DNA of 33,738 nt from NCBI GenBank assembly GCA_005888755.1, contig VBBQ01000037.1:85903-119640 (forward strand), written 5' to 3'. The DNA is from Candidatus Bathyarchaeota archaeon (GTDB lineage Archaea; Thermoproteota; Bathyarchaeia; 40CM-2-53-6). A model generated the notes under the pieces. The model was given only the letters and a program-made list of their open reading frames with translations, did not search any database and was not told where the DNA came from. The translations under genes were made by a program, and so were the position numbers. This document shows, in pieces, positions 1 through 21,504 of this stretch; position 1 is the stretch's first letter; the number at the start of each line of letters is the position of its first letter.

Positions 1-1030
1 CTCGAGGAGACTCCAGCCCATTGAACCCCAAGATGGCGATTCTAGAATGGCGAAAGCGTTTTCCGCAAAGCGACAAGGCATTCTTGACCAAATCGAGTAC
101 CTTTTGCTCTCCGGCCTCGTTGATCCGTCGTGCTGCTCTAACTACGCTCATGCTTCCTCGTCCACCTGTGCCGCTGATCGCGATGTTGCTTGCAATCGCA
201 TCTCTAGCCACGAAGATGTTGGGTATTCCCAGGTTGTCGGTTCCGGATTGTCGGCATAGATCGAGTGCCTCGGCGTAGTCCACGTCGTCAGCTTCACACA
301 GGCTTGCTAGTTCGAATTCCAAAGCTCGCAGGACGTCTCGATATATTGGCCCGAAGAGCCCGGCTGCCTCGGCGGCGCCGAGCTTTGTGCTAGTGCTAAT
401 AGAAGGGAATATCGAGAGAAATATTTCCTGAGCTGACGAAGGTGCCCCTGCCCCGATTCCTGCGACAAGTTTCGGCTTCTCTCTGAATTTCTGAAGAGTT
501 TCACCCCCCCAAAACAATGGGAGGTAGCTCAGCTGAATATCTCTGCCAATTGTATGGCCGCTATGCTTTTCGATCACCTCTCGAAGAACTGTACCGGTGA
601 AGTTCGGCCGGCATAACCCGGTGAAGGTTAGGCTCGCTCCATGAGGGAGAAACTTGCACACGGCACGAGTGGTCCTCTCAAGCTCGCTAAGCTCCCTCTG
701 ATTCACTGCGTGTCCAGTCAGGATAACGATTGACGGAGGGATTGCCGAAAGCTCTTCTACGCTCGACAAGACTGTTGTAGTTCCTGCTTTTTGGTGAACT
801 CCAAGCAACCATCTTGCCTCGCTGAGTCCACCTGTTTCCGTTTTTTTGGTCTTGGCCTCATCAAAATGCCCTACGAGGTAGTTTGGTTGTCCTGCTTCAG
901 CGAACAGGGTTGAAAGCAAGAGTGCTTCTGGTTGGTTTCCGATGATCGCAATCTTGGATTCGGAATGTTGATTGTTCGTTCGAAACCACCCATAATCTTG
1001 CGAGGAAAGGCTGATAGTCGGTTCAGCGGG
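1..1030 (-). CDS. Degenerate nucleotide-sugar dehydrogenase paralogue, partial (runs off left edge), no canonical start
   Basis: The minus strand is open from just after a TAA at 1031-1033 down to base 1, with no internal stop over about 340 codons. From the ATT at 950-952 it reads IAIIGNQPEALLLSTLF, which resembles the start of the UDP-glucose/GDP-mannose dehydrogenase Rossmann domain but lacks the usual GxGYVG. The later part (KLGAAEAAGLFGPIYRDVL, then two Cys-containing helices and a segment ending RIAILGFNG) follows the central helical and C-terminal NAD-binding layout of the family. Where the family has GGxCxPKD, this frame reads IPNIFVARDAI, so the catalytic Cys is missing. There is no ATG, GTG or TTG in frame before the Rossmann strand. 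An ATG at 991-993 is one frame off and would need a single-base shift. The gene may be a non-catalytic paralogue, a frameshifted gene, or carry a sequencing error. The 3' end lies outside the window. Confidence 0.6.
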
Positions 1031-5904: not shown

Positions 5905-6349
5905 CTCCTCTTGGACTTCGGCCATCCACGAGGGACTGGGCATAGTCTCGAAATCGCTGAGGTTCTGCGTTGGTGCGTGAGATCGGCAGATCCACATGAT
6001 CGCCTCCTTTCGTCTTATAGAGTCGAAGGTTTGGCTTCCCAAACTGATCAAGTACGAGGGACACCATCCTATAGTTCCTCCAAAAACCGGTTACAACTTC
6101 CTTCGATCCCTTGATCACACGAAAGCTGGAATTGTCGAATTGGATTTCAACATGAGACCGTCGGGTATAGATTAGACGACCAAGTACGAAGCCGATGGGA
6201 AACGATCCTGCGAGAAGCACAAGCCTCAGGGTTCCCCCAGAAATGTGGAAGGTGACCAATAGAGCGTTGATCGCGAACGATGAGAGAAGAACCAAGGGCA
6301 TGCTATACGATGCAAGAATCGAAACTTGGGTCTTGGTTAGTTTTTCCAT
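5876..6349 (-). CDS. Small membrane protein, two N-terminal TM helices and a soluble tail
   Basis: A 157-aa protein I do not recognise. It has two hydrophobic helices near residues 13-32 and 39-60, followed by a short basic loop (YTRRSHVEIQ) and a beta-rich soluble part that could be a small PH-like or barrel domain (from FDNSSFRVIKGSK to DLPISRTNAEP). Its ATG overlaps the end of the upstream 175-aa gene by 13 nt, so the two are almost certainly one operon. Its last nine codons overlap the convergent metallophosphoesterase gene. No catalytic motif is visible. Confidence 0.6.
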   Translation of the reverse strand: MEKLTKTQVSILASYSMPLVLLSSFAINALLVTFHISGGTLRLVLLAGSFPIGFVLGRLIYTRRSHVEIQFDNSSFRVIKGSKEVVTGFWRNYRMVSLVLDQFGKPNLRLYKTKGGDHVDLPISRTNAEPQRFRDYAQSLVDGRSPRGASLQAAEVA

Positions 6350-6864
6350 GTACGGTTTGACCCTATGGTTTTTCTTAGTTTCAATTGTTTTCCTATGCTG
6401 CGTCCAACTTGATTATTGCTCAGGACAACCTGACGAGAAGATGTGCTTGCCGCTGCAAGTCCGAGCTCCCTCTTATCATACCTCGAGATGAATGACACAA
6501 TCGGAGGTGGGAAATCCCTGTCGGAGAAGAAAACCAGCCACGCCCACTTCAGATCCTCATCCTTTATGATCCTCGCTACGGTATCTACGCTTTTCCGGAC
6601 CTTCTCAGTTGTGAGAAGGGCACTTCCTTCATCTACGCAGAACAGCGAAACAGAATAGTTTGGAAGAACGGTCCAGGCAAGAAATCTAGACAAGAGGAAG
6701 CCCTTGTTTCTAGTAGCTCCTTTGGCATAGATAGTGAAAGTGGTGTCGTCAACTCGGTAGTCCCTGAAAAACTCTGTTAGGTCAGCTATTAGACGAGTAC
6801 CGCCTCGAATCAGCCTTGACTCGAATAGATCTACTGCAGATTCGCTCGGAGTTGATGACTTCAA
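6337..6864 (-). CDS. Uncharacterised soluble alpha/beta protein, operon partner of the membrane protein
   Basis: A 175-aa protein starting at a TTG (MKSSTPSESAVDLFESRL). It alternates helices and strands, with strands such as TTFTIYAKG, SVSLFCVDEG and WAWLVFFSDRD, and a basic C-terminal tail. There is no signal peptide, membrane helix, Walker motif or metal-binding cluster. The shape is reminiscent of a Rossmann-like or nuclease-like alpha/beta fold, but I see no catalytic signature. It overlaps the next gene by 13 nt, and the pair is likely translated together, perhaps with this protein recruited to the membrane by its partner (inference). Confidence 0.55.
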   Translation of the reverse strand: MKSSTPSESAVDLFESRLIRGGTRLIADLTEFFRDYRVDDTTFTIYAKGATRNKGFLLSRFLAWTVLPNYSVSLFCVDEGSALLTTEKVRKSVDTVARIIKDEDLKWAWLVFFSDRDFPPPIVSFISRYDKRELGLAAASTSSRQVVLSNNQVGRSIGKQLKLRKTIGSNRTWKN

Positions 6865-6994
6865 GCTCTAGATTTGGGAACAATCGTTGCACATAAGAAG
6901 ATCCCCGCTTTCTGCGCCACCAATCACGTGTCGAACGAGGATGGATCATCGCCTCGGGGAAGGCCTTCTCGACGGAGAAACCTCCCCCTATTTG

Positions 6995-8734
6995 CTATTC
7001 GGGTGGGATTTGGGCGAAGATCGTCGAGTAATTGATGCCGCGACGGTTCCTATGAACGAAGAAGACGACTATCCCTAGAACGGCCACAATGATTGTGAAG
7101 ATCACCGCAAATAGATCACTGAATAGTGTAGGCGACGACCAGTTTATGGAGCCAAGCCCAAAGTCGCCTCCTGGCGCGACGGCGAAGAAGTAGTCCACCA
7201 CCAGATTGGCGGCAAATCCTCCTATACCGATGAGGACCATTCCCCATTTCCCGCCGGGTTTGTAGGGCGCGGTTTCGAAAATCTGACGTCTGCTCGCCCT
7301 CAAGGGTAGGATGACCAACGAGAGGGTAAATAGGGTGAAGAAGAAGGAGTCGTAGAAATCTGTAATCTGGACTCCACCTCCGCTACCAAGAACGTTGCTG
7401 ATCAGCGTATTTCCGCCCTGGTTTAGAGTATGTCCTACATCCAAGATCTGTGACTCAGAGAAGCATCCAAGGATTGCGATGACGCCTGTTATGATCACAG
7501 CGTTAATTGGCGAATGGAACCGGTCGTTGATATTAGAGAGACGTGTTGGGAGGACGCGATCAAAAGACATTGCAAAAAGTATCCTAGATCCTGTTAGAAT
7601 AAATGGGGGAATGTCGTTAGCGATCCAGAGGACCCCGAAGACAACGAGCAAGAAGTTAGCCCCTCCCAAACCGATTGCATTGCCGGTCAATCCAGCTAAT
7701 GTTGTCGTCCAGAGAGATACGTTTGGAAGGCCAGGTGATAGGCTTCCTCCTCCATATGATAGGTAGCTCCATGCCGAAAGCAAAGAGTACGTGTTCCCAT
7801 TGACGGTCGCTGGTGCAATACCCTTGATAGCGTTGGCTGCCACCAAAGAAATGCTCACGTAGAGAGCGATGATGAGAAGCGAAGCCAGAATCAGAGTTCT
7901 GGGGAGGGACTTGTTCGCCTCTTTTATCTCGCCAGCAACAAATGTCGACGCGGCATAGCCTATGTAGGCAAAATAGGCACCGATCAGGGCCGTTTGAACT
8001 GCCCCGACATACCCTCCTGCACTCATACCCTTGGCATCCAGCCCCTGGTTCAATGCCGCAGTCACATAGTCGCCAGGAGCATGTCCAAGGACATTCGTCA
8101 TACCGAGCTGAACATTTGCGGTGGTAGCTTGACTGAGAAGGCCAAAAACGTAGAAAGTCAACACTGCAGGAATCCAAAACATCCCCTGTAGAAGCAACCC
8201 TGTGAGTTTGATGCCGAACACGCCTATGACGGTGAACACCACGACAAGAACGATGCCGACCAAGAACAGGAAAACATCCTGTGGAATACCACCCGGTGTC
8301 GTGAAATTTAGTCCGAATGCTATTGGACCCATGATGAAGTAGAGCCCTTCAAAGACCGCCACCGCAATGATTCCGAAAGACCATGCAATACTAAGAAACT
8401 CGAGCCAAGCGCCCAGAAAACCCCACACAGGTCCCAGGACTCGGGATATCACGACATAGCCGCCACCTGAACGGGGCATCGCTGCGGAAAGAACCGAAAC
8501 CGCCAAGACCGAGAGCAGTATCGCGATGCCGCCGATGATGAAAGCCATCGCCATAGGCGGAATACCTGCAAAGTACATGTTTTCGGGAAGCGGTGCTTTA
8601 CCCGTATACTGGAAGACCCTCTTTTGCCAACCGAGTCCTATCGTGTTAGCCAGGACAATAATTACAGCGGTTACGGCTCCTATTTCACGGACGAGTCCCG
8701 TTGCTTTTCGGACGAATAACTTCTCTTCTGCCAA
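6995..8734 (-). CDS. APC-family amino-acid permease
   Basis: A 579-aa polytopic membrane protein. The N-terminus IGAVTAVIIVLANTIGLGWQ matches the first discontinuous helix of the amino acid-polyamine-organocation superfamily. It is followed by MPRSGGGYVVISRVLGPVWG, the conserved G-rich loop and helix of APC transporters. About 12-14 hydrophobic segments follow, including FAYIGYAASTFVAGEIKEANK, the family's conserved YxG...GE(V/I) region. It probably imports amino acids using ion gradients; the substrate is not predictable. TTG start, with a TATA-like box about 40 nt upstream. The C-terminus ends in a short cytoplasmic tail. Confidence 0.88.
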   Translation of the reverse strand: MAEEKLFVRKATGLVREIGAVTAVIIVLANTIGLGWQKRVFQYTGKAPLPENMYFAGIPPMAMAFIIGGIAILLSVLAVSVLSAAMPRSGGGYVVISRVLGPVWGFLGAWLEFLSIAWSFGIIAVAVFEGLYFIMGPIAFGLNFTTPGGIPQDVFLFLVGIVLVVVFTVIGVFGIKLTGLLLQGMFWIPAVLTFYVFGLLSQATTANVQLGMTNVLGHAPGDYVTAALNQGLDAKGMSAGGYVGAVQTALIGAYFAYIGYAASTFVAGEIKEANKSLPRTLILASLLIIALYVSISLVAANAIKGIAPATVNGNTYSLLSAWSYLSYGGGSLSPGLPNVSLWTTTLAGLTGNAIGLGGANFLLVVFGVLWIANDIPPFILTGSRILFAMSFDRVLPTRLSNINDRFHSPINAVIITGVIAILGCFSESQILDVGHTLNQGGNTLISNVLGSGGGVQITDFYDSFFFTLFTLSLVILPLRASRRQIFETAPYKPGGKWGMVLIGIGGFAANLVVDYFFAVAPGGDFGLGSINWSSPTLFSDLFAVIFTIIVAVLGIVVFFVHRNRRGINYSTIFAQIPPE

Positions 8735-12000: not shown

Positions 12001-13084
12001 AGGCGTAATCAAAGAACGGAAAGAAAAGGTCCTATCAGCGATGCGGGACCTTGGCGGACAAGTCTACACTCAACTCAACAAGAAAGAATTCCCAACCTTC
12101 CGCATGCCAAGCCGATCCATCGCCAACATACTCTACGACTCCAAGACAAGACAGTACATCCTGGGAAAGAGAACGGTCAAGAGGAGCGCTCGAAACGTTA
12201 GGCACCTTCGGCCCTTCACGCAACTTCTCTGGACGGCCATGTTCGCCGACGAGCTTACAGAGCAAAACAAGACCAGCACGTTGAGAGACGTGTTCTACTC
12301 GGCCCAAGCGTACGAGATGGACTTTCAGGACCAACAAGAGAGCGACAACCTCATCACCGACCTGGAAACAGTGACGGGATACTCAAGAGAAGACTTCAAC
12401 GTCTATCCCGAAGAGAGAAGCGCGATATTCGGAGACCTGACAATCGAGTACACGGTTCCCGGATACGAAGGACGTCGGCTAAACCTAGCTTCTCACCCTG
12501 ACGGAGTCATGATTGGACCTGCTCTGACAACATCGGAGTTCATCCAGCCTGACAGTAAGAAAGTCGACAAAGTAATTGCGATTGAGAAAGGTGGCTTGTT
12601 CACTAGGTTCATAGAAGAACGCGTGCACCAGCGTTTCAAAGCAGTGCTTATCCACACCGCGGGACAAGCGCCGAGAGCAACAAGGTTTCTACTCCGCAGG
12701 CTCAACCAGGAGTTAGACATCCCAGTCTACATATTCACGGACGGAGATCCATGGGGAATGCACATTGCCATGGTCATCATTTCTGGATCAGCCAATGCAG
12801 CCCATCTTCGCGAGCTGAACACTCCGGACGCAATCTGGGGTGGGGTCTGGGCCACAGATATTGTCGACTACAAACTTCCCAGCGATCCACTGACGGACCT
12901 GGATGTCAAAAGATTGAACGAGCTCGAGAAAGATCCTCGCTATGCCGGTGGACTATGGCAGAGAGAGATTGATACTTTCCGGAAGGTCAAGAAGAAATCG
13001 GAGCAAGAAGCATTCAGCCGGTATGGGCTCACCTACATCGTTGATGAGTATCTACCTAAGAAGCTGAAGATCAAGTCCAACTAG
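11969..13084 (+). CDS. top6A: DNA topoisomerase VI subunit A
   Basis: A 371-aa Spo11-like DNA-cleaving subunit. The 5Y-CAP domain holds STLRDVFYSAQ, with Tyr110 the likely DNA-linking tyrosine. The Toprim domain has VIAIEKGGLF (Glu206) and FTDGDPWGMH (Asp258, Asp260) for Mg2+. An ideal Shine-Dalgarno stretch (ggagtgat, 11956-11963) lies inside the end of top6B, just ahead of the ATG, so the start is secure and translation is coupled to top6B. Its stop codon is shared base-for-base with the convergent PHP/intein gene (ctag, 13081-13084). Confidence 0.96.
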   Translation: MVQKRKKSKSKGVIKERKEKVLSAMRDLGGQVYTQLNKKEFPTFRMPSRSIANILYDSKTRQYILGKRTVKRSARNVRHLRPFTQLLWTAMFADELTEQNKTSTLRDVFYSAQAYEMDFQDQQESDNLITDLETVTGYSREDFNVYPEERSAIFGDLTIEYTVPGYEGRRLNLASHPDGVMIGPALTTSEFIQPDSKKVDKVIAIEKGGLFTRFIEERVHQRFKAVLIHTAGQAPRATRFLLRRLNQELDIPVYIFTDGDPWGMHIAMVIISGSANAAHLRELNTPDAIWGGVWATDIVDYKLPSDPLTDLDVKRLNELEKDPRYAGGLWQREIDTFRKVKKKSEQEAFSRYGLTYIVDEYLPKKLKIKSN

Positions 13085-15441
13085 ACAAAGTGTTCAAGTC
13101 CCAAAGAGGGAGATTTCTTGATTGGAGCGGGCTTGGTGAGGTCAAGTTTTCCGTAGACCCCGTCGTAACCTGGTTCGACATAGATATCGTCATTGCGCAC
13201 GCGAAGAATTGCACCAGAGACCTCTGGTCCCACAACTGACTGCAATTGACCCTCTGGCACATCTAGCATGACGGAATATTCTGAGCCGAATTTTCCAACA
13301 AGCATCTTGTACTGGTCCCAGACTTTCGTCGATCCGGGATTGACGTCTCCACTCACAAGGGCGATAATCTCAGAGAGGGGGAGCAAATGGCGATACGCTA
13401 TGGCATTCTTCGGCACATAGTCTTCCGGGCGATCTGCGAGTTCTTCTATTCGTTCTTCGACGCCTCGTGTCATTTTCTTTCCACACCGGGGACACTTATC
13501 ATTCAGCCGTCGAGCCTCCTTCCCGGACATTGAGACTTTACATTCACGATGGCCAGTCCAGTGATATTTGCCATATGCCGGCGAGGTCTCTATCGTGAAC
13601 AAGAACCGTTTAGGATCTTTCTCTTTGACCGCGTCAACGAGACTGTGATAGGTGACGTGATCGAAATCGAACACGTTCGCCTCTCTTCCCAACCGCCATG
13701 GCCACGCTGAGTGCGCGTCGGAATTGGAAACGAGACAAAGACGGTCGAGTTGAGATAGACGCCAGTTCATCGGGGGATCCGAATTGCCGGACCAGACTGG
13801 TACTCCGTTTCTTCTCACATAGACGGTCTTGTTTGGTACGCTTACGCATGAAACGATGCCCTCATAGGACACCCAGTCCTCCGTATGGCCGCGGGCCTTG
13901 ATCATGGAGGGGATTACAGCGGGCTCATTCTTTCTTATGAAATAGACATTCCATGAATCTTCGCTCTGCCGATAGTGTTTCTCTTGTGAGAGCGAAGACA
14001 ATAGGGTGTCCTTCTCCCTATGGAGTTTGAAGTATGCCGACATTCCCAGCTTCAGAGCGATTTCTTGTAGATCGTCTCGAAGACGCAAGGAAATTGTAGT
14101 TGCAGACAAACCCCTCCCCTTCCTACCATATCTATGACCGTCTCCTTTGATGTACCATTCAAAGAAGATTCTCAGGAGCCTCGCCGAAAGAATCTTGATG
14201 TTATCCGGAACGAACTTGTTGCTTGCCCCGGAGAATTGTTGAAGATAGTGAAAGAGTTGAACATCTCGCACTCCAAGTCGGTATCCGTTCCTATCCTTTG
14301 CGATAATGGGATTGTATCCAAATGTCTTCAGAATCTGTTTCAACTGGGTAAGAAGCTTCATTTCGCGATTGGAAAGGTAAACCGAATATTCCCCCTTGGA
14401 TCTAGTAACCCATCCCTCAGCAATCCAAAACCCGAAGAACTTGAGCCAAGGTATCATGGGGACGCTCTTCTCTCGGATAATTCTGCTTCCAGAATAGTGT
14501 CGACTGCCATGCTTACTCTCAGTGCTGGGCAAGAGAAAGCTATCGTCTTCCCTTCCCCTCCATATTCCGTCCTTCTTGAAGCGTTTGGACCTGCCAAGCA
14601 AAATTCGCGCTTGATCCATCCTAAGGGCCTTTTCAAGTCTGAAGTCACAAGGCCGGTATACCAACTTATGATTCGGTGTCACCAGCAAATCCACTCGTTG
14701 AGTCTTCAGTTTGTACATAGCCCCGTTGTAGTCATACACGAATATTCCCTGCGGTTTCTGAAACTCAATTGCTTCGGATTCCGTGTTCAGAGTGCAGACC
14801 TCATCATCATATTCTATTTCATGAATTTTCTTCCAGCCACCACTTGTGAGGGCCTCAGTCTGGTAGTCGTAGCAGGACATGCCTGTTTCTAGCGCGAAAA
14901 TTCTGTCAGATCTCTCCTGATAGCAGTCGACGAGGCTGTCGAAGCCGCTGACAGCGCCGAAGAGGCTGAACCAGGGGGTCCATGCGTGAGCAGGAAAGAT
15001 TACGCATTGTCCGTCGGCTTCAAGCACCTCATCCACAAGCTCCGGAGCGGTAGCTCGGAGTGTTGGCCTACCATCGCTTGACAGGTTCCCGTAGTTCGCC
15101 AGTCGATCGCTTACCGCGTCCGCTGACTCTATCGAGGGAGCAAGCACACAATGGTGTATTCGTCGCGACTTATCGCCGAATGAGAAGGTGGTGTTAACTT
15201 CTCCGGTGATCATATACTGGGCTTGGAACGTACCATCCCTGAGCTGGTACAATCCGGAGTCCGTGACATCGTGAAGTTCCCTCCGAACTTCCTTCCTCCA
15301 ATCAGGGTGAGTGAAATCGCCCGTTCCAACAACGTTCAGTCCTTTCATCGAGGCGAAGCGGGCGACTTCTTTCAGGTTCATGTTCTTGCTTGTGGCCCTG
15401 CTGTAAGGACTGTGAATCTGAAGGTCGACAAAAACACGCAT
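13081..15441 (-). CDS. Endonuclease Q-type PHP-domain protein interrupted by an intein
   Basis: A 786-aa precursor. Removing the intein (residues 190-553) leaves 422 aa matching the archaeal endonuclease Q/PHP family, which nicks DNA 5' of deaminated bases such as uracil and hypoxanthine. The N-extein has PHP metal motifs DLQIHSPYSRAT, VGTGDFTHPDW, HHCVLAP and PAHAWTPW. The C-extein has SNSDAHSAWPWRLGREANVF, then a zinc-binding module (HRECKVSMSG and CPRCGKKMT), and a C-terminal domain. The host splice site joins ETGMS to SDPPMNW, a highly conserved active-site-proximal segment. ATG start. It converges on top6A with a 4-nt stop overlap. Unspliced, the protein would be disrupted next to its metal site. 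Confidence 0.88.
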   Translation of the reverse strand: MRVFVDLQIHSPYSRATSKNMNLKEVARFASMKGLNVVGTGDFTHPDWRKEVRRELHDVTDSGLYQLRDGTFQAQYMITGEVNTTFSFGDKSRRIHHCVLAPSIESADAVSDRLANYGNLSSDGRPTLRATAPELVDEVLEADGQCVIFPAHAWTPWFSLFGAVSGFDSLVDCYQERSDRIFALETGMSCYDYQTEALTSGGWKKIHEIEYDDEVCTLNTESEAIEFQKPQGIFVYDYNGAMYKLKTQRVDLLVTPNHKLVYRPCDFRLEKALRMDQARILLGRSKRFKKDGIWRGREDDSFLLPSTESKHGSRHYSGSRIIREKSVPMIPWLKFFGFWIAEGWVTRSKGEYSVYLSNREMKLLTQLKQILKTFGYNPIIAKDRNGYRLGVRDVQLFHYLQQFSGASNKFVPDNIKILSARLLRIFFEWYIKGDGHRYGRKGRGLSATTISLRLRDDLQEIALKLGMSAYFKLHREKDTLLSSLSQEKHYRQSEDSWNVYFIRKNEPAVIPSMIKARGHTEDWVSYEGIVSCVSVPNKTVYVRRNGVPVWSGNSDPPMNWRLSQLDRLCLVSNSDAHSAWPWRLGREANVFDFDHVTYHSLVDAVKEKDPKRFLFTIETSPAYGKYHWTGHRECKVSMSGKEARRLNDKCPRCGKKMTRGVEERIEELADRPEDYVPKNAIAYRHLLPLSEIIALVSGDVNPGSTKVWDQYKMLVGKFGSEYSVMLDVPEGQLQSVVGPEVSGAILRVRNDDIYVEPGYDGVYGKLDLTKPAPIKKSPSLGLEHFV
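13783..14874 (-). mobile_element. LAGLIDADG intein in the endonuclease Q gene
   Basis: A 364-aa in-frame insertion with intein blocks in order. Block A is CYDYQTEALTSGGWKKI, with Cys1. Block B contains LLVTPNHKLVY (TxxH-type). Two LAGLIDADG helices, FFGFWIAEG (335-343) and FFEWYIKGDG (426-435), provide the homing endonuclease, with a Glu and an Asp as likely catalytic acids. Block F/G is KTVYVRRNGVPVWSGN, followed by Ser as the +1 residue. The penultimate residue is Gly rather than the common His. Both LAGLIDADG helices and the frame are intact, so homing could still be active (inference). Confidence 0.9.
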
Positions 15442-19657: not shown

Positions 19658-21504
19658 GACTTCTCCTGATACACGCGGATCGATTCGAATACGAAGCCCG
19701 AGAGAAGGCTGTCAGAGAACCCGAGCCTCTAGATGAGTCACACAAGAAGGGAGCCCTTGAAAACGGGCTGGTCGTCTTCTCGACAGTGGAGAAGAATGAC
19801 GAACAGGATCCCGAACAGATTGCGACTAACGCAGCATCGTCTGTTGAAGAGGTCCTAGGATGGCTGAAAACAAAGAAGGTGATGGTGTACCCGTACGCCC
19901 ATCTATCTACGAGCTTGGCCTCCCGCGAACCAGCGATATCAATCCTCAAGGCCTTGGAGGAAAAACTTGTGAAGAAGGGCTATGAGGTTACGAGGAGTCC
20001 CTTTGGATGGTACAAGAGCTTCACGATAACAGCCAAGGGACACCCTCTCTCCGAATTGTCTAGGACCATAACAGTTGACACGAAGTCACGACAGGCGGCC
20101 TCCCCGGTCAAGACGGAATATGTCATCATGGACCAAGAGGGAAAGCTACACTCGCCTGAAGATTTCGAATTCAAGCCGCATGACTCGGAATTCAAGTCTC
20201 TAGTCGAGAAAGAAGCCCTCAAGAAGGGACTCACAGGAGGCGAACCACATTTCCTCGACTATGCCCGTCGATTCGGGATTGAATGGGAATCCTTCGCGGA
20301 CGTTGGCCAGATGAGGTTCGGACCGGAGTCCAACCTTATCATGGACCTCCTCGCGGAGTATGCGGGACAGGTAATCAGACGAATCGGTATTCCGATACTG
20401 AATGTGAAGGGGACTAACATGTTCGATGTTGCGGTCAATCCGATAAAAGAACATCTTCAGCTTTTCGGGTCAAGAGCCTATGAGGTAAAGGTGGACGAGA
20501 GAACATTCGTTCTCCGATACGCGGCATGCTTTCAGCAATTCTCAATGGTCAAAGACTGGACTCTAAGCTACAAGACGTTGCCTTTTGGAACCTTTGAGGT
20601 TGCGGACAGCTACAGGATGGAACAGAGCGGCGAGCTGCTGCTTTCTTTCAGGCTCCGAAAGTTCCTGATGCCGGATCTGCACATCTACCTCAAAAGCGTC
20701 GGAGAAGCCATTCGAATCGGAGACAAGATTCACCGAGCCATCTACGAAGAGATCAGGAAGCTGAACAGAGAATACGTATCGCTCTACAACACCACACGAT
20801 CATTCTTCGAAGCAAACAAAGACTCTTTCCTGGAACTGGTAAAGGTAGAGAAGAAGCCAATACTGCTCAACTTCGTCCCAGAGGGATTGTACTACTGGGT
20901 GCTCAACGTGGAGTACAACATCATCGACGACCTGGATAGACCGAGGGAGATTGGAACATTCCAGATAGACATTGGCAACGCGAAACGATTCGGCATATCA
21001 TACACGGATGAGAAGGGGGAAAAGCAATTCCCGGTCATCATTCACACCGCAGTGATAGGCGGACTGGAAAGATACCTATTCACCCTTCTGGACTCCGCGG
21101 TTCGCCTGGAAAGGCAGGGCAAGAAGCCAATGCTCCCCGTCTGGATCTCCCCTGCGCAGGTTCGAATTATCCCAATCGGGAATCACTTTGTGAAACAGGG
21201 AATGAAATTGCTCGGTACATTGGAGAAGGCAGGGATCCGAGCTGACCTCGACGATCGAGACGATACCATGCAGAGCAAGGTGCGCGATGCGGAGCTAAGT
21301 TGGATTCCATACACGATTATCTACGGGGAAAAAGAGATCAAGACTAGGGAGCTATCGATCAGGTCGAGAGCAGACGCAAGAGAAAGCAAGATCACGCTGG
21401 CTACGTTTCTGAAACGACTCAGGGCGGAGGTTGAAGGCTACCCGATAAGGCCCCTCACCTATCCAGCCCTTTTGTCTCAGCGTCCGGGCTACAAGAGAAT
21501 GTAA
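19654..21504 (+). CDS. thrS: Threonyl-tRNA synthetase, archaeal type
   Basis: A 616-aa archaeal ThrRS. The N-terminus MRLLLIHADRFEYEAREKA is the D-aminoacyl-tRNA deacylase-like editing domain of archaeal ThrRS, extending to about residue 140. The catalytic core has VADSYRMEQSGELLLSFRLR (motif 2) and IGGLERYLFTLLD (motif 3). The anticodon domain begins near LPVWISPAQVRIIPI. I choose ATG at 19654 rather than an upstream GTG at 19639, because ggagg sits 8 nt ahead of the ATG and the editing-domain strand begins there. It overlaps the zinc-knuckle gene by 4 nt. Confidence 0.95.
   Translation: MRLLLIHADRFEYEAREKAVREPEPLDESHKKGALENGLVVFSTVEKNDEQDPEQIATNAASSVEEVLGWLKTKKVMVYPYAHLSTSLASREPAISILKALEEKLVKKGYEVTRSPFGWYKSFTITAKGHPLSELSRTITVDTKSRQAASPVKTEYVIMDQEGKLHSPEDFEFKPHDSEFKSLVEKEALKKGLTGGEPHFLDYARRFGIEWESFADVGQMRFGPESNLIMDLLAEYAGQVIRRIGIPILNVKGTNMFDVAVNPIKEHLQLFGSRAYEVKVDERTFVLRYAACFQQFSMVKDWTLSYKTLPFGTFEVADSYRMEQSGELLLSFRLRKFLMPDLHIYLKSVGEAIRIGDKIHRAIYEEIRKLNREYVSLYNTTRSFFEANKDSFLELVKVEKKPILLNFVPEGLYYWVLNVEYNIIDDLDRPREIGTFQIDIGNAKRFGISYTDEKGEKQFPVIIHTAVIGGLERYLFTLLDSAVRLERQGKKPMLPVWISPAQVRIIPIGNHFVKQGMKLLGTLEKAGIRADLDDRDDTMQSKVRDAELSWIPYTIIYGEKEIKTRELSIRSRADARESKITLATFLKRLRAEVEGYPIRPLTYPALLSQRPGYKRM

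Follow-up and report, generated by a model that had tools for sequence, protein, structure and literature searches.

An endonuclease Q (EndoQ) gene that is interrupted at its active site by a segment of 364 amino acids raises the question of what the segment does there: whether it leaves the protein by splicing and spreads by homing, is a decaying form of such an element, or has become part of the enzyme. The locus lies in a window of 33,738 nucleotides (the whole stretch of DNA analysed) from the genome of a soil archaeon of the class Bathyarchaeia, assembled to 2.0 Mb in 48 contigs. The best explanation, in which we have considerable confidence, is a bifunctional class-1-type intein, capable of both splicing and homing, that moves independently of its host gene. 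Literature searches, which had limited coverage, returned no report of an EndoQ intein, nor of any intein in Bathyarchaeota; within the literature searched, EndoQ seems to be a host in which inteins had yet to be described, and the element provides a new endonuclease and splicing module that is open to experiment.

The host gene and the site of insertion

All of the features described here lie on the minus strand. The open reading frame at 13081..15441 encodes a precursor of 786 amino acids that belongs to the TIGR00375/PHP family. That the host is endonuclease Q, as the earlier note proposed, is borne out by the flanks: residues 1–189 and 554–786 match Pyrococcus furiosus EndoQ (5zb8) in two stretches around a gap (E 7e-59), TIGR00375 matches the same extein parts, again in two stretches (E 8e-61), and the EndoQ structures 5zb8 and 7k30 match the precursor with E about 1e-58. 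The N-extein (residues 1–189; 14875..15441) comprises the N-terminal part of the PHP domain and ends in LETGMS, and the C-extein (residues 554–786; 13084..13782) begins with SDPPMNW and contains SNSDAHS; both are delimited by alignment with P. furiosus EndoQ and with empty sites. Together they carry the PHP motifs HxH, PAH, ETG and SDAH and the CxxC zinc region expected of an EndoQ, except that the first His is Gln. The P. furiosus enzyme (5zb8, 7k30; PMC4357722) is similar in protein family, PHP motifs and zinc-finger region, but it has no intein and carries Ala at the +1 position, which is Ser (Ser554 in the window; 13780..13782) at every EndoQ site inspected, empty or occupied. The substitution of the first His is a feature of the window's EndoQ family as a whole: DLQxHS replaces DLHxHS at 15409-15426 and in loci L007-L014, such that the conserved PHP residue corresponding to P. 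furiosus H8 is Gln in all nine of the nine members, whether or not they contain an intein.

The intervening segment, residues 190–553 (13783..14874), is bounded by the junctions LETGMS/CYDYQT and PVWSGN/SDPPMNW. It has no match to EndoQ; it matches the LAGLIDADG_3 model and, more weakly, models of intein splicing domains. Its limits are defined by empty sites, by homologues at the same site (referred to as the EndoQ-a site) and by its fold. In six EndoQ genes of the same genus and one of the same family, all free of inteins, the flanks abut exactly, residue 189 being followed by residue 554, and almost every genome of the class Bathyarchaeia that has EndoQ likewise has an empty site. In a survey of the class, 189 of 256 genomes gave a match, and an uninterrupted succession of flank, intein and flank was present in only four of the 189 (G000, G007, G143 and G222). 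The coordinates and length given by the earlier note for an intein splitting the ETGMS/SDPPMNW segment of a DNA-repair nuclease are thereby confirmed by precisely the comparison with intein-free homologues that it had proposed. In the two nearest empty relatives (L008 and L009), the sequence just downstream of the insertion point is SDLPMNW, as opposed to SDPPMNW in the window; this may reflect chance or a partial resistance to homing.

The placement at the PHP active site, which had also been suggested, holds as well. The insertion point is four residues past the conserved E185 (14887..14889), which aligns with E167 in the published list of conserved P. furiosus EndoQ residues (PMC4357722), and about 20 residues ahead of the SDAH motif. 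Splicing would therefore be needed to rebuild the PHP active site. It should be added that AlphaFold2 (AF2) modelled the entire precursor poorly (pLDDT 67), and the geometry of the site within EndoQ is not taken from that model.

The earlier note regarded the proximity of topoisomerase VI to the intein as a notable pairing, a view that is not supported. The top6A gene adjoins EndoQ in every relative of the same genus examined, with or without the intein, and a link between the two was rejected, since a conserved neighbour of intein-free EndoQ genes carries no information on the intein. In two intein-carrying Bathyarchaeia of other families, the flank contains no top6A signatures.

Predicted splicing residues and fold

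Residue conservation was scored over 18 aligned relatives, phage inteins among them. The predicted splicing nucleophile, Cys1 (C190; 14872..14874), is invariant, as are T66 and H69 of the block B sequence TPNH (intein residues 66–69; 14668..14679) and the terminal pair Gly363-Asn364 (13783..13788). Cys1, a TxxH motif (T66PNH69), Asn364 and a +1 Ser are the features of a class 1 intein. Cys1, the Asn and the +1 Ser had been recognized previously; two further features had passed without remark, namely that the residue before the terminal Asn is Gly in place of the usual His, a common but not obligatory feature of inteins, and that block F has a cysteine at its F:4 position (Cys343; 13846..13848), where Asp is usual. 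Both are non-standard yet common to the subfamily, the block F cysteine being present in 17 of the 18 inteins. A class 3 mechanism was considered and rejected because there is no Trp at B:12 and Cys occupies position 1; in place of the WCT triplet, the residues at B:12, F:4 and G:5 are Leu, Cys and Ser.

The unusual C-terminus bears on whether the segment is spliced at all. It could instead be a large domain, Hint-like or of LAGLIDADG type, that was inserted in frame and remains part of EndoQ, as might be supposed from the absence of the penultimate His and from the scores of the curated models, which fall below their cut-offs (20.7 versus 35.8 bits for Intein_splicing of Pfam and 18.1 versus 24.5 bits for TIGR01445). 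A class 1 Gly-Asn intein of a mycobacteriophage, however, splices completely and does so less well once the Gly is changed to His (PMC5050341), so that the missing His is no objection. A domain that stayed in place would also split conserved PHP active-site motifs, and it would have to account for presence and absence at exactly the same site, for the conservation of Cys1, TxxH, Asn and +1 Ser, and for a complete Hint fold whose ends (residues 1..364 of the model on 1..371 of 7qsu) lie next to those of a solved intein. We regard a non-splicing domain as scarcely credible. The case also illustrates that Gly-Asn inteins score beneath the present cut-offs for splicing domains and are easily misannotated.

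The predicted fold is that of a full-length intein. The AF2 model of the segment (pLDDT 91.4) combines a Hint fold with a LAGLIDADG fold and superimposes on the TliVMA intein (7qsu) with Z 27.1 and an rmsd of 4.0 over 312 residues, residues 1..364 spanning 1..371 of 7qsu with both termini adjacent to those of the solved intein. It also aligns end to end with PI-TkoII, PI-PfuI and PI-SceI, and overall the Z scores reach 27 for inteins with a homing endonuclease (HEN) and 15–20 for mini-inteins. The TliVMA and PhoVMA inteins (7qsu, 7qss and 7qst; VMA-b site of the archaeal A-ATPase) share with it the Hint domain, a two-motif LAGLIDADG endonuclease, Cys1 and the full-length fold, but they occupy another host protein and site and are about 20% identical over the structural alignment. 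The window intein is also shorter (364 amino acids versus 429 in TliVMA), and it ends in Gly-Asn, not in the His-Asn that is canonical in VMA inteins.

In the scheme that we favour, the whole EndoQ precursor would be translated first. The Hint fold would activate the S189–C190 bond by means of Cys1 and the TPNH sequence of block B, the acyl group would pass to the +1 Ser554, and cyclization of Asn364 would free the 364-residue intein; S189 would then be joined to S554, giving ETGMS-SDPPMNW and a restored PHP active site. These steps are suggested by the conserved residues and the fold. The freed intein would be a LAGLIDADG endonuclease that cuts empty EndoQ alleles across the highly conserved sequence encoding ETGxSSDPxMNW, and it would be copied into the cut allele by repair from an occupied one. 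It is best regarded as a selfish element, one that persists since an inexact excision would ruin a conserved active site.

The homing-endonuclease domain

The putative endonuclease domain comprises approximately intein residues 137–318 (13921..14466). Pfam LAGLIDADG_3 matches the intein in two stretches (E 4.5e-15), and residues 137–318 of the model resemble I-DmoI (Z 15), which has the same fold but is intron-encoded and free-standing, whereas the domain of the window is nested in an intein. The two LAGLIDADG helices of the earlier note correspond to KFFGFWIAEGW (14410..14442), in which the acidic E153 and the following G154 are invariant in the 18 inteins, and FEWYIKGDGHR (14131..14163), in which the acidic D245 is nearly invariant. 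Both catalytic residues, E153 and D245, are present in the window copy.

It is conceivable that the intein still splices but that its endonuclease is dead or dying in the window lineage, the element having been held by inheritance since an earlier invasion. Such a stage is predicted by the homing cycle, and PhoVMA is a characterized degenerate case (PMC8966425). The EndoQ-intein family itself also holds degenerating copies: L069 (G268:C7:357663-358754) is an EndoQ intein, otherwise intact, in which the second catalytic Asp is replaced by Cys (KGCGH), and its endonuclease is likely to be dead. Against this explanation for the window copy are the retention of both acidic residues and the purifying selection that acts on the endonuclease domain. 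Its dN/dS is 0.10/1.44, or about 0.07, which is tighter than in the N-terminal splicing part (0.16) and is as expected if selection has maintained cleavage. Furthermore, the closest relatives are empty, which implies either that the invasion was recent or that losses were many. We therefore consider a defunct endonuclease rather unlikely here. The segment is probably an active homing intein of class 1 type, as judged from sequence and fold; the earlier view that it could be active is strengthened by the purifying selection on the endonuclease domain and by the horizontal spread at the same site described below.

Distribution and horizontal movement

When 84,980 species genomes were scanned with an alignment of four inteins, a pattern-based procedure whose counts are lower bounds, the same intein was recovered, complete and at the identical junction, from at least Bathyarchaeia, Pacearchaeota, Micrarchaeota, Portnoybacteria, another Parcubacterium, Peregrinibacteria and two Omnitrophota. 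A search of the phylum added three more genomes with this intein, all from one further genus of Thermoproteota. In a sample of 145 Patescibacteria genomes, 39 had a match to EndoQ and the EndoQ-a intein was found in the query's own genome only; an intein-only search of 380 Patescibacteria gave the same single match. Most of the sequences compared come from metagenome-assembled genomes; misbinning of contigs is made less likely by the agreement of the exteins with taxonomy.

Near copies occur at exactly this EndoQ site in unrelated archaea and bacteria, so the element has evidently passed between microbes that are far apart. Of 66 pairs compared, 62 have inteins more similar than their exteins, and the margin between Archaea and Bacteria reaches 25 points: 69% versus 44% for Portnoybacteria and Pacearchaeota, and 73% versus 49% for Bathy_Yes46 and Omni_bin291. 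This is not the result of an intein that evolves slowly, because between the window and G007, within the genus, the intein is the less conserved part (75% identity versus 83% for the extein). The approximately unbiased (AU) tests point the same way. The intein data reject the extein tree (p 2.8e-5), and the extein data reject the intein tree (p 2.3e-37). Bacteria group together in the extein tree, with modest support, and the intein data reject monophyly of the bacterial inteins (p-AU 0.0015). Deep nodes of the intein tree are weakly supported. Monophyly of the Bathyarchaeial inteins is not rejected (p 0.22), and part of the spread may thus have been vertical within the class.

A patchy distribution of this kind could also arise if an intein in the ancestor of all EndoQ had been lost many times, with no horizontal movement. 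The common site in both domains would be explained, and some losses are likely in any case. This history would nevertheless require nearly every lineage of the class to have lost the intein, given the four occupied sites among 189, and it conflicts with the incongruent trees and with the greater similarity of inteins than of exteins between domains in an element that, within a genus, evolves at least as fast as its host protein. It is accordingly very improbable. Comparison of the intein and extein trees shows instead that the intein has spread horizontally between species and phyla, including between Archaea and Bacteria, and apart from the host gene. The locus offers a clear and datable case in which archaeal and bacterial copies of one homing intein sit at a single codon junction, in a host gene that keeps its own history.

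The same appears to apply within the genus, where the closest EndoQ relatives of both carriers are empty (dS 0.33-0.37 between the window and L008/L009; dS 0.30 between G007 and L012). Between the window and G007, dS is 1.08-1.42 for the whole intein and 0.63-0.79 for the exteins, one estimate for the latter being 0.74. The excess in the intein, together with the empty nearest relatives, would be accounted for by two acquisitions from related but distinct donors. Separate acquisition by the window and G007 lineages is the simplest reading, although a history of gain and loss is conceivable. A footprint of exon co-conversion beside the insertion was sought in 30-nucleotide blocks between the window and L007, L008 and L009, with no clear signal. 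Nor is base composition informative: the intein has 47.1% GC and the exteins 51–54%, but GC3 is similar.

It is possible, though we put this forward tentatively, that the EndoQ-specific intein is still moving among Archaea, ultra-small bacteria and archaea (CPR and DPANN) and Omnitrophota, by way of viruses or direct cell–cell contact, in the sediments and groundwater that they share. If so, the EndoQ locus would serve as a tracer of DNA exchange between the domains.

Related inteins in viruses and in the same genome

In genes other than EndoQ, the most similar inteins share 24–40% identity with that of the window. They include inteins in ThyX and other genes of its own genome, in NrdD (L053 and L070) and in an epimerase-like gene (L055); viral relatives are found in phage terminases, a tape-measure-like protein, and phage ThyX and methylase genes. 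Nearest outside EndoQ are the ThyX inteins of Bathyarchaeia and of Corynebacterium phage P1201, along with class 1 phage inteins with a penultimate Gly (PMC5050341). These share with the window intein CYD..TE.LT..GWK, TP(N/D)H, the block F cysteine and the ending VRRNGk..W.GN/(S/T), but are 24–37% identical to it and differ in host gene (ThyX, NrdD, terminase, epimerase and methylase). The circulation of the subfamily in viruses suggests that viruses could be the vehicle. No virus was found to carry the actual EndoQ intein, the viral relatives being at most 32% identical and in other genes.

A second, different EndoQ intein was found in L073 (Patescibacteria G646, C2 about 6062-8569), with the junctions VIPAH/CLLPDT and AAVHN/CWTPWF and a canonical His-Asn end. 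It lies directly after a PHP His (P. furiosus H139). Both EndoQ intein sites thus touch active-site residues, which agrees with the preference for conserved sites that has been reported for inteins (PMC2814812); the patescibacterial intein, unrelated to the first, conforms to the rule by which conserved active sites are the targets.

The window's own genome is rich in inteins. Besides the EndoQ intein, they are present in ThyX, an MCM-like helicase and a Hel308-like helicase (L002, L004 and L005), the two helicase reading frames seemingly containing two each. A further one (L003; G000:C18 about 19823-20524) interrupts subunit B of the A-type ATPase, with the junctions GYPGYMY/S and HN/TDLSTIYERAGR, whereas subunit A is the host of the well-known VMA inteins. 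Among the viral sequences, L058 is an intein in a tape-measure-like protein, and L060, on contig IMGVR_UViG_3300044580_000126, is a glycosyltransferase-like reading frame of more than 1,600 amino acids with at least four intein-like segments in series.
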